Source: an uncultured cyanobacterium (GTDB lineage: Bacteria > Cyanobacteriota > Cyanobacteriia > PCC-6307 > Cyanobiaceae). Taken from it: 53,068 bases of DNA. This document shows positions 813 to 22,946 of the stretch, piece after piece. Location of the stretch: positions 1 through 53,068 of the forward strand of contig CAIXBB010000035.1 of the NCBI GenBank assembly GCA_903917565.1. Reading direction: 5' to 3'. The position numbers and the translations under genes are program-made. Each line of letters starts with the position of its first letter. The first letter of the stretch is position 1. The notes below the pieces were generated by a model. It worked only from the letters and a program-made list of their open reading frames with translations. It did no database searches and had not been told where the DNA came from.

Positions 813-894
813 CGTTTCCTGCATCGTCCGGCCAACGTTTCCTGCATCAGAAGCTCGACGTTTCCAGCATTAGAGTCCCGATATCTGCTGCATC
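813..894. repeat. Four direct repeats with an exact 23-base period upstream of the ATPase gene
   Basis: The 13-mer CGTTTCCTGCATC occurs at 813-825 and again at 836-848. CGTTTCCAGCATT lies at 859-871, and a degenerate fourth copy (TATCTGCTGCATC, 9 of 13 matching) at 882-894. Each start is exactly 23 bases after the previous one, with unrelated 10-base spacers. The array fills the gap between the MazF stop and the DUF4143 ATPase start at 907. A period of about two helical turns suggests a multi-site operator or iteron-like binding array; the binding protein is unknown. It is too short and regular in its spacers to be CRISPR. Confidence 0.75.
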
Positions 895-906
895 GGCACG
901 CCCGCC

Positions 907-2175
907 ATGGCCGCCAGCAACGCCTTGGCCTACCGCCCCCGCATCGCTGACGGCGAGCTGCGCGCCTGCCTGGCTTCCGCCGGCGCGGTGGTGATCGAAG
1001 GACCGAAAGCCTGCGGCAAGACCCGCCTGGCCCAGCAGCTGGCCGCCTCCACCGTGCTGCTGGATGTGGACACCGCCGCCCGCCAGGCGCTGGCGGTGGA
1101 TCCGGCCCTGGTGTTGGCGGGTCCTCGGCCGCGCCTGCTGGATGAGTGGCAGGTGGAGCCGGCGCTCTGGAACCTGGTGAGGCGGGCCGTGGATGCCGTC
1201 GAGGCGCCGGGGCAATTTCTGATCACCGGTTCGGCGGTGCCGGCCGATGACGCCGAGCGCCATACCGGGGCGGGCCGCTTTTCGTTTCTGCGGCTGCGGC
1301 CCATGACCTTGCGGGAGAGCGGCGCCGGCCAGGGCGGCGTCTCGCTGGCGGCGCTGCTGGCGGGGGAGCCGCCCAGCTGCTCCGATCCAGGGCTGGCGAT
1401 GGCGGATCTGGCCGAGCTGGTGTGCCGCGGCGGCTGGCCGGCCCAGCTGGAGCGGCCCCTGGCGGCGGCCTCCCGGGCCGCCCGCGACTACCTGGAGCAG
1501 GTGCGCCAGGTGGATGTGCAGCGGGTGGATGGGCGGCGGCGGGATCCCCAGCGGCTGGGGGCCCTGCTGCGTTCCCTCGGCCGCAACGTGGCCACCGAGG
1601 TGAGCCTGGCCACCCTGGCGGCCTATGCCGGCGGCGCCGATGGCCCGCTCGACCCGCGCACCGTTTCCGACCACCTGTTGGCCCTGGAGCGGTTGATGGT
1701 GCTGGAAAACCAGCCCGCCTGGCGGCCCCATCTGCGTTCCAAGGCGGCCCTGCGCCAGGCCCCCCGGCGCCACTTCTGCGACCCCTCCCTGGCGGTGGCG
1801 GCCCTCGGCGGCAGCCCCGATCGCCTGCTCAAGGATCTGGAATGGCTGGGATTGCTGTTCGAGTCGCTCGTGATCCGTGACCTGCGGGTGCTGGCTCAGG
1901 CGCTCGATGGCGAGGTGTTCCACTACCGCGACAACTACGGCGTCGAGGTGGACGCGATCGTGCAGCTGCGCGATGGCCGCTGGGGCGCGATCGAGGTGAA
2001 GCTGGGCCAGGGCCAGGTGGAGGCCGCCGCCGCAGGCCTGCTGCGCTTTCGCCAACAGATCGACACCAGCCGCACCGGCGAACCCGCCTTCCTGGCGGTG
2101 GTCTGCGGCAGCGGCTATGGCTACCGGCGGGCGGATGGCATCGCCGTGGTGCCGGTGGGGGCGCTGGGGCCGTGA
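907..2175 (+). CDS. AAA-type ATPase with C-terminal DUF4143 domain
   Basis: This 422-residue protein carries a P-loop at about residues 32-39 (GPKACGKT) and a Walker B-like LLDEWQ near residue 79, followed by a LITGSA sensor strand, as in the DUF4143 'ATP-binding protein' family. Its C-terminal third holds the DUF4143 region. GVEVDAIV, then IEVKLG, form the D...ExK pattern of a restriction-endonuclease-like fold. The molecular role of the family is poorly known; it is common in accessory DNA next to toxin-antitoxin genes, as here. The ATG at 907 follows directly after the 23-base repeat array, which probably controls it. Full length, no damage seen. Confidence 0.8.
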   Translation: MAASNALAYRPRIADGELRACLASAGAVVIEGPKACGKTRLAQQLAASTVLLDVDTAARQALAVDPALVLAGPRPRLLDEWQVEPALWNLVRRAVDAVEAPGQFLITGSAVPADDAERHTGAGRFSFLRLRPMTLRESGAGQGGVSLAALLAGEPPSCSDPGLAMADLAELVCRGGWPAQLERPLAAASRAARDYLEQVRQVDVQRVDGRRRDPQRLGALLRSLGRNVATEVSLATLAAYAGGADGPLDPRTVSDHLLALERLMVLENQPAWRPHLRSKAALRQAPRRHFCDPSLAVAALGGSPDRLLKDLEWLGLLFESLVIRDLRVLAQALDGEVFHYRDNYGVEVDAIVQLRDGRWGAIEVKLGQGQVEAAAAGLLRFRQQIDTSRTGEPAFLAVVCGSGYGYRRADGIAVVPVGALGP

Positions 2176-5369: not shown

Positions 5370-6950
5370 TCAGCGGCGCTGGAACACCCCCTGGCCGTTG
5401 AGGTTGAGATTATCGATCCGCACCGCCGAGGCACGGCTGCCGGGGCCGACCGTGAAGGTCACGGCACTGGGGCCATAGGCGTTCTCGCCGCTGGGCTGGT
5501 AGCGGAAGCTGTCGCCGCTCACCGGGGTGAGCGGAAAGGAGCGGAGCCGGGGGCCCAGCTGCAGGGCCAGACCATCACCGCGGCGCACCACTGAGATCGG
5601 GCCCACGTAGGCGTTGGCGTAGGCCCCGGTGTAGGCGCCGGCGGGGCGGGCCGGCAGCGGCCGGGCCGGGGTGACCACCGTCGGGTAGTCCTGCTGCTGC
5701 ATGGCCTGGAACAGGGGGTGCAGGGCGGCCAGGTAGTCAAGCCGAACCTCTCCGGTGGTGGCCAGGTCGAGGAAGCTGAGGCTCAGGGCCTCCGGCACCC
5801 CCAGCGGCTGGCTGTTGGAGAGCACGGCGATGCCGAGGGATTCCGCCGGCAACAGGTAGACGGCCGTGGCGGCGCCGAGATCGAAGGCTCCCGAATGGCT
5901 CAGCTGCACCGTGCCACGGTCTGTGTAGCTCACGTTCCAGCCCAGTCCGTAGAAGCCGGCCCGGTCGGTGGCTGGATCGCGGGGCTGGTGGCTGACGATC
6001 TGGGGCCGGTGGGTCTCGGCGAGGGCCGCCGCAGCCACCACCGGACGGCCATCGAGACGGCCGCCAGCCAGCTGCAGCCGCAGCCACTGGCCCAGATCCC
6101 TGACGCTGGAGCTCACCCCGCCGGCGGGAGCCTGGGCATCGGCATCCCGCTGGTAACGGGCCACCCAGCGGCCCCCCTCCGGCACGTGCAGGGACGCGTG
6201 GTTGGTGGCGTTGACGAAATCGCTGTACCGGGAGCTGGTGCGGGCCATACCCAGGGGCCGGTAGAGCCGTTCGCTGGAGAGCTGCTCCCAGGGGCGGCCC
6301 ACGGCGTTGGCGGCGGCCACGGCGCCGGCGGTGAAGCCGAAGTTGGTGTAGGCGTAATCGGCACGGAAACGGTTGCCGGTGGGGAGCAGCCGCAGGCGCG
6401 CGAGGATCGTGGCCCGATCGAAGCCCAGGTCTTCGAGGTGATCGCCGGCGTGGTCGGGCAGGCCGCTGCGGTGGGCCAGCAGATCGCGGATGGTCACAGC
6501 GGCGGCGATGGCCGGCGGACCGATCCGGGCCTCCGGCAGGGTGCGCAGCACCGGGTCGTTCCAGCCCAGGCGCCCGTCGCCCACCAGGCCCGCCACCACC
6601 GTGGAAGCGATCGGCTTCGAGAGCGACGCCAGCTGGAAGATGGTGTCGGCATCGACGGCACCGGGCTGTCCCACCTTCCGTACGCCGTAGCCCTTGAGGA
6701 ACACCACCCGGTCGCCCTGCACCACAACGATCGCCAGGCCCGGCACGCCGGTGCGGCGCAGCATCCCGCTGGCCAGGGCGTCGAGCTTCGGCAGGGCGGC
6801 GGTCAGCCGGCCCGCCGTGACCTGGCGCGGTGGCGGGGGTGGCCCGGAAGGGGGCTCGGCGCCCCTGGCGGCACGGAGAGGGTGGACCGCCAGGGCAAGG
6901 CCTAGGACCAGAGCGGCCGCCCCGGGGCGACGGAGGACGCGTGGGGCCAA
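5370..6950 (-). CDS. Serine hydrolase of the class C beta-lactamase / D-peptidase family
   Basis: This 526-residue exported protein has a signal peptide at residues 1-30 (hydrophobic ALVLGLALAVHPL, cleavage near ARG-AEP). The serine hydrolase triad motifs are intact: S109-x-x-K112 (SLSK), Y201-T-N203, and an HSG box near residue 355 replacing KTG. Downstream is a roughly 100-residue beta-rich domain (GAYTGAYANAYVGPI...) like the DUF3471 domains found behind such enzymes. Family members are D-aminopeptidases, esterases or penicillin-binding-like hydrolases; this sequence does not fix the substrate. It stands alone, convergent with hsdR and 35 bases after the FUSC gene on the same strand. Confidence 0.8.
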   Translation of the reverse strand: MAPRVLRRPGAAALVLGLALAVHPLRAARGAEPPSGPPPPPRQVTAGRLTAALPKLDALASGMLRRTGVPGLAIVVVQGDRVVFLKGYGVRKVGQPGAVDADTIFQLASLSKPIASTVVAGLVGDGRLGWNDPVLRTLPEARIGPPAIAAAVTIRDLLAHRSGLPDHAGDHLEDLGFDRATILARLRLLPTGNRFRADYAYTNFGFTAGAVAAANAVGRPWEQLSSERLYRPLGMARTSSRYSDFVNATNHASLHVPEGGRWVARYQRDADAQAPAGGVSSSVRDLGQWLRLQLAGGRLDGRPVVAAAALAETHRPQIVSHQPRDPATDRAGFYGLGWNVSYTDRGTVQLSHSGAFDLGAATAVYLLPAESLGIAVLSNSQPLGVPEALSLSFLDLATTGEVRLDYLAALHPLFQAMQQQDYPTVVTPARPLPARPAGAYTGAYANAYVGPISVVRRGDGLALQLGPRLRSFPLTPVSGDSFRYQPSGENAYGPSAVTFTVGPGSRASAVRIDNLNLNGQGVFQRR

Positions 6951-22067: not shown

Positions 22068-22946
22068 TCAGGGCGATCGGGGCCTGCGGTCCTTGAGGTG
22101 ATCCCCGGGCCGGTCGATCAGCTCGAACAGCCAGCTCTCATTGAGGGTCTTGACGAGGCGGTTGGTGGTGGACGCCATGGTGGTCAGCTCCCGCAGGGTC
22201 TGGAGCAGCAGCGGCCGCGTCTGGGATTCGGTGCTCTCGAGGCGCCGGATCAGGGCCGAGAGGTCGGCGGCGGTGCCGTCGGCGCGGCCCTCCAGGCGCT
22301 CCGCCAGTTGGCGGGTGGCGCCCAGGGTGCGGTTCAGCTCGGTGCTGCTGCGCTGGGCGTCGGCCTCCAGGCGTGTCGCCAGACGGCGGCTGGCGGCCAG
22401 GGTCTGGTCCAGCTGATCGAGGCTGCGGGGCAGGCGGGTCTCCGCCAGAGTGAGACCACTGCTGAGGGCGCGCTGGAGGGGGATGCGGCTGCTGGCCACC
22501 TCGGCGAGCAGATCGTCGAGATCGGGACGGCTGGTGAACACGAGCGTCTCGCCATCGCCGATCGGCGACTGGCCGACCGCCGCCGGATCGGGCGTGATGG
22601 CGATGTAGCTCTCCCCCAGGAGCCCGACCTGGGCCAGTTCCGCCCGGCTGCGGCGCCCCACCATGGAGCGATAGGGGTCCCGCAGCTCCAGTTCCACCAG
22701 CACCTGGGCATCGGGTTGGAGCAGGATCCGGCGCACCTGGCCCACGGCGAACCCCGAGATCCGCACCGCCATGCCCGTCTGCAGCCCGGCGGCGTCGAGG
22801 GTGCGGAACTGCAGGCGCACGCTGGGCGCCAGCCAGTTGCTGGAGCGAGCGATTCCCACCACGAAGAGCCCCAGTAAACCCACCGCCCCCGCCAGGAAGG
22901 CCAGGCTCTGGGGGCCGGGGCGACGCCGCTGTCCATTGGACGTCAC
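22068..22946 (-). CDS. MlaD/MCE-domain lipid-transport protein
   Basis: A 292-residue protein with one N-terminal transmembrane helix (LAFLAGAVGLLGLFVVGIA, residues 15-33) and an MCE domain (AGLQTGMAVRISGFAVGQVR near 53-72; LLGESYIAITPDP). A long, probably helical region with repeated LxxxLxxT spacing (residues 150-270) follows. MCE proteins form rings that carry phospholipids between the membranes; in cyanobacteria the same family serves outer-membrane lipid supply. The MlaE-like permease precedes it by two bases in the same operon. The ATPase (MlaF) is not in the window. Confidence 0.85.
   Translation of the reverse strand: MTSNGQRRRPGPQSLAFLAGAVGLLGLFVVGIARSSNWLAPSVRLQFRTLDAAGLQTGMAVRISGFAVGQVRRILLQPDAQVLVELELRDPYRSMVGRRSRAELAQVGLLGESYIAITPDPAAVGQSPIGDGETLVFTSRPDLDDLLAEVASSRIPLQRALSSGLTLAETRLPRSLDQLDQTLAASRRLATRLEADAQRSSTELNRTLGATRQLAERLEGRADGTAADLSALIRRLESTESQTRPLLLQTLRELTTMASTTNRLVKTLNESWLFELIDRPGDHLKDRRPRSP

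Follow-up and report, generated by a model that had tools for sequence, protein, structure and literature searches.

A direct-repeat array with a widely kept 23-nt period in front of AAA_14-DUF4143 (PDC-S01) genes as a likely self-bound operator

The repeat array, its promoter and its neighbours

The window, as we call the whole 53,068-nt stretch of cyanobacterial DNA that was analyzed, carries an AAA_14-DUF4143 gene (907–2175, forward strand, 422 aa) with an array of direct repeats just in front of it. The window makes up one entire contig, and the genome, judged by its relatives, is Cyanobium/Synechococcus-like. Upstream of both lie, by Pfam, genes for an RHH antitoxin (232–456) and a PemK toxin (453–797). 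Directly behind the DUF4143 gene a Phd/YefM (2231–2509) and a PIN gene (2506–2901), likewise named from Pfam, form a toxin-antitoxin pair that is followed by a type I restriction-like gene, the whole making up a small defence island. The first-pass annotation had described a four-unit direct repeat with a strict 23-nt period at 813–894, and reading the window directly confirmed it. The units, all on the forward strand, occupy 813–825 and 836–848 (both CGTTTCCTGCATC), 859–871 (CGTTTCCAGCATT) and 882–894 (TATCTGCTGCATC), and their cores, which start at 814, 837, 860 and 883, are GTTTCCTGCAT at 814–824 and again at 837–847, GTTTCCAGCAT at 860–870 and ATCTGCTGCAT at 883–893. A repeat search grouped units 1–3 as one family at spacings of 23 and 23, Tandem Repeats Finder reported a repeat of period 23 at 807–874, and lag 23 gave the top self-match score of region 780–906, a score that none of 2000 Markov-1 resamples equalled at any lag between 10 and 60. 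In the 3.02-Mb genome, which holds a single DUF4143 match (the gene at 907–2175), a gapped core-pair pattern found two overlapping matches, both in the array, and the core pair with up to three mismatches found three, all in the array, so that at this tolerance no further core pair that would mark a regulon was present in the genome. The single 11-mer GTTTCCWGCAT has five exact genomic matches, three of them in the array.

Two details of the first description had to be revised. The 10-nt spacers had been called unrelated, which does not hold for the second and the third (AGAAGCTCGA and AGAGTCCCGA), as these are alike by eye. The gene-proximal unit had been regarded as decayed; it nevertheless begins with AT and ends with GCAT in all 13 sequences of a set made up of the window and 12 cyanobacterial homologs, so it is better seen as a variant that these homologs retain. 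This set was anchored on GCATTAG, which favours unit 3; in it, the mean major-allele frequency was 0.90 for core columns, 0.70 for spacers and 0.85 for third codon positions. Directly upstream of the array, at and just past the end of pemK, two 15-nt copies (768–782 and 791–805, 87% alike) also stand at a 23-nt lag and in phase with it. Their sequence differs from that of the array, and the common phase is probably a coincidence. Elsewhere in the window, at 22281–22427, a 75-nt unit occurs twice with 77% matches.

The predicted −10 element with the top score in the region, TAGAGT (871–876, forward strand), lies between the cores of units 3 and 4 and adjoins unit 3. Unit 3 is followed without gaps by TAGnnT in 13 of the 13 cyanobacterial sequences, where the anchoring on GCATTAG leaves no more than the final T and its surroundings as independent evidence. 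Transcription would then probably start within the span of unit 4. Of 118 arrays, 107 stood before genes whose start codon could be assigned, and we surveyed the promoters of these. The median array spanned 87 nt (about 3.8 units) and ended 14 nt before the start codon; the best −10-like hexamer lay inside the array in 86 of the 107 genes, was repeated one period away in 25, and scored above shuffles in 82 (Wilcoxon p = 8e-10). Since −10-like hexamers lie inside the arrays, the repeat units are probably operator sites spread over the promoter, and the repeats cover the promoter of their own gene, as is proper to an operator array, with the promoter itself a predicted one. The 14-nt distance to the start codon would also suit an array that acts in RNA, as repeats of a 5′ leader bound by the encoded protein or by some other factor, but in those 86 genes the position of the hexamer would leave many units upstream of the transcript, and we hold such an action to be very unlikely.

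To see what is inherited with the array, we compared the window with 21 cyanobacterial loci by blastn. In eight of them (L036, L040, L041, L042, L044, L045, L046, and L049) a shared block extends from about 782–842, at the array, to 2175, at the stop codon, and no homology to the window was found in front of it. PemK homology stands directly before the gene in L037 and L038, as a short piece in L043 and 1.8 kb away in L039, and in genus-level homology searches PemK and DUF4143 appear as separate blocks in many genomes. Because the block spans array to stop codon and PemK is separate from it, the array and one gene constitute a unit of inheritance. Conversely, when ten PemK-bearing loci were scanned for TTTCCNGCAT, the only core sought, nine lacked it, and the one with a single core (L016) also has DUF4143 fragments. 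Judged by these homology blocks, the array belongs to the AAA_14-DUF4143 gene and not to the upstream RHH/PemK pair. An RHH/PemK operator was accordingly rejected, as the array does not go together with the pair in either comparison. The first-pass annotation had named the RHH antitoxin as a possible reader, and RHH proteins do bind repeated operators and the pair adjoins the array in the window; with eight loci that have the array without PemK homology in front, nine PemK-bearing loci without the core, and arrays in many phyla, we regard the antitoxin as a highly improbable reader. In L036, short pieces of a DUF4143 gene and of a PIN gene adjoin at 6650–6950 and are likely a relic of the same island.

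A block that runs from array to stop codon is also what would be seen if the array were the end at which a mobile cassette of one gene recombines or homes, recognized by the nuclease. Relatives of the gene occur on 213 plasmid records and 4 phage-labelled scaffolds, which would fit such a cassette, but inspection by eye shows no second copy at the right end, there is no core pair elsewhere in the genome, and the array overlaps the predicted promoter, all of which makes it unlikely. We also looked at viral contigs with two exact cores 23 nt apart. Eight matched, five of them inside a mechanical open frame of at least 80 aa; none of the eight encodes a DUF4143 relative in the DNA available for it (tblastn, best E 2.4), nor did a protein scan of viral contigs find one. 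These scans give no support for the array as a nuclease target, and phage targets are neither proven nor excluded by them.

Conservation of the period across phyla

A total of 346 distinct DUF4143 genes was analyzed, in a sample that does not extend to archaeal members. The first homolog set comprised 80 loci, of which 76 were used (L066, L071, L079, and L090 were left out). Another 80 regions, all with an identity of at least 35%, were picked by hand from match lists; since many listed matches are not among these 80 regions, the sampling leans toward the relatives of the query. Another 72 DUF4143 matches gave 69 places after omission of three small pieces, with five short ORFs skipped and 11 duplicates removed. 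Five duplicates and five short ORFs were removed from a 90-locus set, and nine duplicates and one late start from a later 140-locus set. For the 69 places and the 90 loci a wider upstream region was used, in which the start codon is not fixed. Six plasmid or phage loci were added from the 213 plasmid and 4 phage records. The phylum samples consisted of 149 genomes for Actinomycetota, 299 for Pseudomonadota, 148 for Bacteroidota, 297 for Acidobacteriota, and 298 for Gemmatimonadota, the phylum of each being inferred from the named loci at its centre.

The lag scan covered 75 loci of the first homolog set (L061, whose upstream region was too short, was omitted). Lag 23 was top among lags 6–60 in 60 of these 75 upstream regions, against 3 of 575 control regions, and the mean match was 0.43–0.44 at lag 23 and 0.27–0.28, near background, at lags 22 and 24. 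The first-pass annotation had proposed a search for GTTTCCTGCAT-type arrays in relatives. The 23-nt period is indeed conserved there; the core sequence is not, being specific to clades, and the arrays of distant homologs come in other spellings, for example CGCCAAAACTATC, CTTTGTCCGTTTCACCCGCT, GTTACAATTCTATCGCTG, GCGAAACGGTAGCGT, and TTTACAATTGGACG. In 216 genes binned by how closely they match the window protein, an array call was obtained for 99 of 106 at 35% identity or more, for 12 of 15 at 28–35% and for 19 of 95 below 28%. In the later set they were called in 63 of 69 genes at 55% identity or more, in 18 of 19 and 15 of 17 in the bins that follow, and in 22 of 25 in the lowest (25–35%). 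One locus with masked bases (L106) keeps its array score when N counts as a mismatch.

In the tree of the 346 genes, the largest split that contains the window and has arrays in at least 88% of its members defines a clade of 262 genes (support 1.0). An array was called just upstream of 238 of the 262, which answers the earlier question of whether homologous genes consistently lack arrays: they do not. The period is 23 nt in 228 (211 by the strict criterion, 17 weaker) and 22 nt in 10 (8 strict), and 24 genes have no call. Outside the clade, 10 of 84 genes have a called array, a contrast that follows in part from the choice of clade, because its border was set by array frequency; the controls and the identity bins are independent of that choice. 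Among those controls, upstream regions of other ORFs passed the 23-nt criterion in 5 of 796 cases (strict) or 9 of 796 (loose), and stretches inside genes in 1 of 785 (strict) or 5 of 785 (loose); the strict 22-nt criterion was passed by none of the 796 and by 2 of the 785. Arrays are also found on plasmids of Bacteroides ovatus, Collinsella aerofaciens, Prosthecochloris aestuarii, and Lentilactobacillus hilgardii and on two phage-labelled faecal scaffolds, and plasmid and phage loci together have them in six of the six examined. Short tandem repeats arise often, and a neutral tandem duplication without function would account for an isolated case, but a period of 23 nt in 228 of 262 genes despite sequence change, with conserved cores and free spacers within cyanobacteria, renders that origin barely conceivable.

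Three of the 24 clade genes without a called array have clear 24-nt arrays, and in some of the 24 none is visible. Lag 24 is the top lag in L190, L343, L344, and L346, the three clear examples being among these four and L344 also scoring as a weak 23-nt array. The pitch may thus differ from lineage to lineage within a range of 22–24 nt. A genome of the Elusimicrobia (G049) has 32 DUF4143 matches, and most of these genes are without a called array.

Core drift and the encoded protein

The core changes from gene to gene and the period does not. Among 87 non-redundant arrays, core similarity tracks protein identity (Mantel r = 0.30, reached in 0 of 1000 permutations). In the 231 arrays of 23 nt it declines steadily with identity, to 0.29 at 55–60% against a phase-shuffled null of 0.25, and is near chance below about 60% protein identity, with the period unchanged. 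At the upper end, core similarity lies above the 99% null for 342 of 376 gene pairs that share 80% identity or more, and among the 231 arrays for all 108 pairs from different genomes with more than 90% identity. For 80 paralog pairs, each from one genome, in 23 genomes, mean core similarity was 0.326, against 0.323 for identity-matched pairs from different genomes (p = 0.75); 54 of the 80 lie within the 95% null, 11 lie above the 99% null, and no pair reaches more than 0.6. Only genes with a recorded genome entered the same-genome pairs, so a few others were counted as different-genome pairs. The cores are not wholly unrelated, because TGCA occurs in 87 of 228 consensus cores against 18 after shuffling. 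A core shared between hosts is CGTTGAAA..TGTCT, which recurs across different genomes of the Gemmatimonadota sample (e.g., L375, L377, L380, and L384).

These comparisons of cores and proteins show that core drift follows the protein and not the host. They bear directly on the idea that the gene is under the control of a host protein, either a transcription factor or a nucleoid protein, that binds the array. Host factors do read many operators, the arrays overlap a predicted promoter, TGCA-type cores recur, and 11 of the paralog pairs are above the 99% null; a host factor would, however, be expected to impose one core per host, and the opposite pattern is seen, as the cores of paralogs are no more alike than those of matched pairs, and close orthologs in different hosts mostly share theirs. 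We thus consider a host reader quite unlikely. Because only the DUF4143 gene is co-inherited with the array, its own product is the most likely protein to read it. Co-descent alone would yield joint divergence of core and protein, and the argument for a function is carried solely by the fixed period and the independence from the host. As one idea, the fast drift of the core may reflect avoidance of cross-talk between coexisting paralogs, with which their mostly different cores are consistent.

The window protein matched DUF4143 (106.2 bits, cut-off 28.1) and AAA_14 (40.8 bits, cut-off 27) in Pfam; at E 0.001 these were its only Pfam domains, with no Rep domain among them. NCBIfam gave no match for the ATPase, and a sequence search of solved structures gave none for the protein at E 1. 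DUF4143 AAA ATPases are what we take to be COG1373. In PADLOC, the PDC-S01 model PDLC04790 matched the gene with an E-value of 2.4e-66, which makes it a candidate phage-defence gene, PDC-S01 being a candidate single-gene system. The accessible text on PDC-S01 describes it as an ATPase fused to PD-(D/E)XK, the same fusion and the same AAA_14 and DUF4143 domains as in the window protein, and gives anti-phage validation as pending for most candidates of this type (PMC12988326).

The structure model (mean pLDDT 91.4, pTM 0.92) was aligned with VIA-align over approximately residues 4–316, with Z of 9.6–15.2 and 6–16% identity, values that speak for a shared fold, which does not in itself establish membership. 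The partners were archaeal AAA+ ATPases (2qen, Z 15.2; 2fna, Z 14.0) and NLR/STAND-type proteins (WRR4A, Z 12.3; CED-4, 11.5; Avs5, 9.6), and Foldseek matched RuvB and origin- or DNA-bound Cdc6/Orc1 at low TM-scores of 0.1–0.5. The Walker A loop comprises residues 32–39 (1000–1023; this and the following segments are on the forward strand), with K38 in 262 of 262 clade genes, and the Walker B residues D79 and E80 are present as well. From model secondary structure and fold matches we assigned a winged-helix region to residues 213–290 (1543–1776), within which the model places a predicted recognition helix at residues 249–262 (1651–1692) and a predicted wing at 279–289 (1741–1773). Model and residues together identify residues 334–422 (1906–2172) as a domain of PD-(D/E)XK type, in which D349 is kept in 260 of 261 clade genes, E363 in 261 of 261 and K365 in 258 of 261. 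As each of the catalytic residues K38, D79, E80, D349, E363, and K365 is all but invariant (each in at least 258 of 261–262 genes), both the ATPase and the nuclease are predicted to be active. The model thus depicts a STAND-like ATPase that also has a winged helix and, by prediction, an intact PD-(D/E)XK site.

To locate the segment that changes with the core, we compared core similarity, corrected for overall identity, with the similarity of each of 412 windows of 11 residues, drawing about 95 disjoint pairs 200 times from the 231 arrays. The two top peaks of the main run, at residues 279–289 (mean r 0.40) and 249–259 (0.34, in a peak over about 245–259), fall on the wing and the recognition helix as predicted, and for a single draw the family-wise 95% null was 0.375. 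Under eight further settings both were always among the first four peaks, with r over all settings at 0.29–0.46, near the family-wise null limit of 0.34–0.42. The windows 19–29 and 368–378 score close to them and in some settings above the winged helix. An earlier map from 111 proteins and non-independent pairs, with peaks at 105–117 (the top one), 335–347/343–355, and 249–261, is superseded by this version. The signal is modest. It suggests that recognition helix and wing belong to the segments whose changes follow those of the core most closely, and it falls short of proof because one conserved segment reaches an r of −0.36.

A proposed self-bound operator and its relation to known systems

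Taken with the shared inheritance and the promoter survey, the array is likely to be a self-bound operator of the DUF4143 (PDC-S01) protein on its own promoter. The protein would read the core of about 10–13 bp through its winged helix, and several copies would line up head to tail, one per 23 bp, across the −10 region. As 23 bp make about 2.2 turns, each copy would be turned by roughly 70 degrees against the one before it, and contacts between neighbours would set the spacing. The spacing would be conserved because these contacts fix it, while the core would be free to drift jointly with the recognition surface, giving each family member a private address. A period that stays while the core varies is most simply explained by a core-reading protein whose copies contact one another at a set distance. 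On this account binding would be direct and cooperative, the effect would be repression more likely than activation, between which sequence alone does not decide, and infection or nucleotide state would bring about release. The earlier proposal of a phased array bound cooperatively by one protein is retained in so far as a single protein is concerned, most likely the ATPase itself, and dropped as to the RHH protein. Given binding, self-repression would be the likeliest outcome, because the sites overlie the predicted promoter, and by analogy with RptR we think it reasonably probable.

A more far-reaching reading, which we put forward as doubtful, sees the proteins of this large clade as self-addressed, STAND-like defence ATPase-nucleases that polymerize on the 22–24-bp-phased array of their own promoter, the assembly serving as repressor and as resting scaffold until infection dissolves it. 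The trigger could be breakdown of host DNA, an altered nucleotide pool, or phage DNA; dissolution would derepress the gene and free the nuclease at once, and the fast drift of the core would keep coexisting paralogs from regulating one another.

Plasmid Rep proteins have comparable sites in their iterons, direct repeats with a pitch of about 22 bp that are bound head to tail by winged-helix proteins acting as repressors of their own gene. The window array resembles them in its direct repeats about 20–23 bp apart; the window gene differs in having AAA+ and nuclease parts in place of a Rep initiator domain. Toxin-antitoxin operators are self-regulated by the module they precede, and similar self-regulation is proposed here, yet for a single gene and with an array unlinked to the neighbouring toxin-antitoxin genes. 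The ATPase and winged-helix core can be aligned, in the model, with those of STAND/NLR proteins and archaeal SSO1545-type ATPases, from which the window protein is set apart by a predicted nuclease that follows the winged helix; the winged helices of NLR proteins have no known role in reading DNA. The closest parallel in regulation is RptR, which according to the accessible text of its description is a homodimer that controls a restriction-modification island and represses the defence-island promoter through three direct repeats of 9 bp with a 6-bp palindrome, two of them overlapping the −10 box (PMC12255303). In both cases direct repeats lie over the −10 of a defence promoter, promoter and defence role being predicted ones here; unlike RptR, a single ATPase-nuclease would regulate itself, and the core varies from gene to gene.

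DUF4143 is a very common, uncharacterized bacterial gene with a suspected part in antiviral defence. The open-access literature, in the parts accessible to us, stresses the abundance of DUF4143/PDC-S01 and holds no mention that we found of a promoter array or of a DNA partner for the family, in which the array is mostly present in the 262-gene clade and mostly absent in the other 84 of the 346 genes. Self-regulating operator arrays as such are known; what is new, as far as we know, is an array of nearly invariant pitch whose spelling is private to each gene, on a STAND-like ATPase-nuclease. If the protein reads the array, most clade genes carry a ready-made DNA substrate, and binding, oligomerization, ATP dependence, and release become testable at once. 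A recognition code could be learned from the 231 genes for which a 23-nt array was called, with coexisting paralogs as natural specificity swaps. In and near the 22-nt group, five loci (L208, L256, L264, L320, and L135) have upstream repeats that by eye look partly inverted, for example GGTTGAAATTCAACC, and a switch in binding geometry is possible there.
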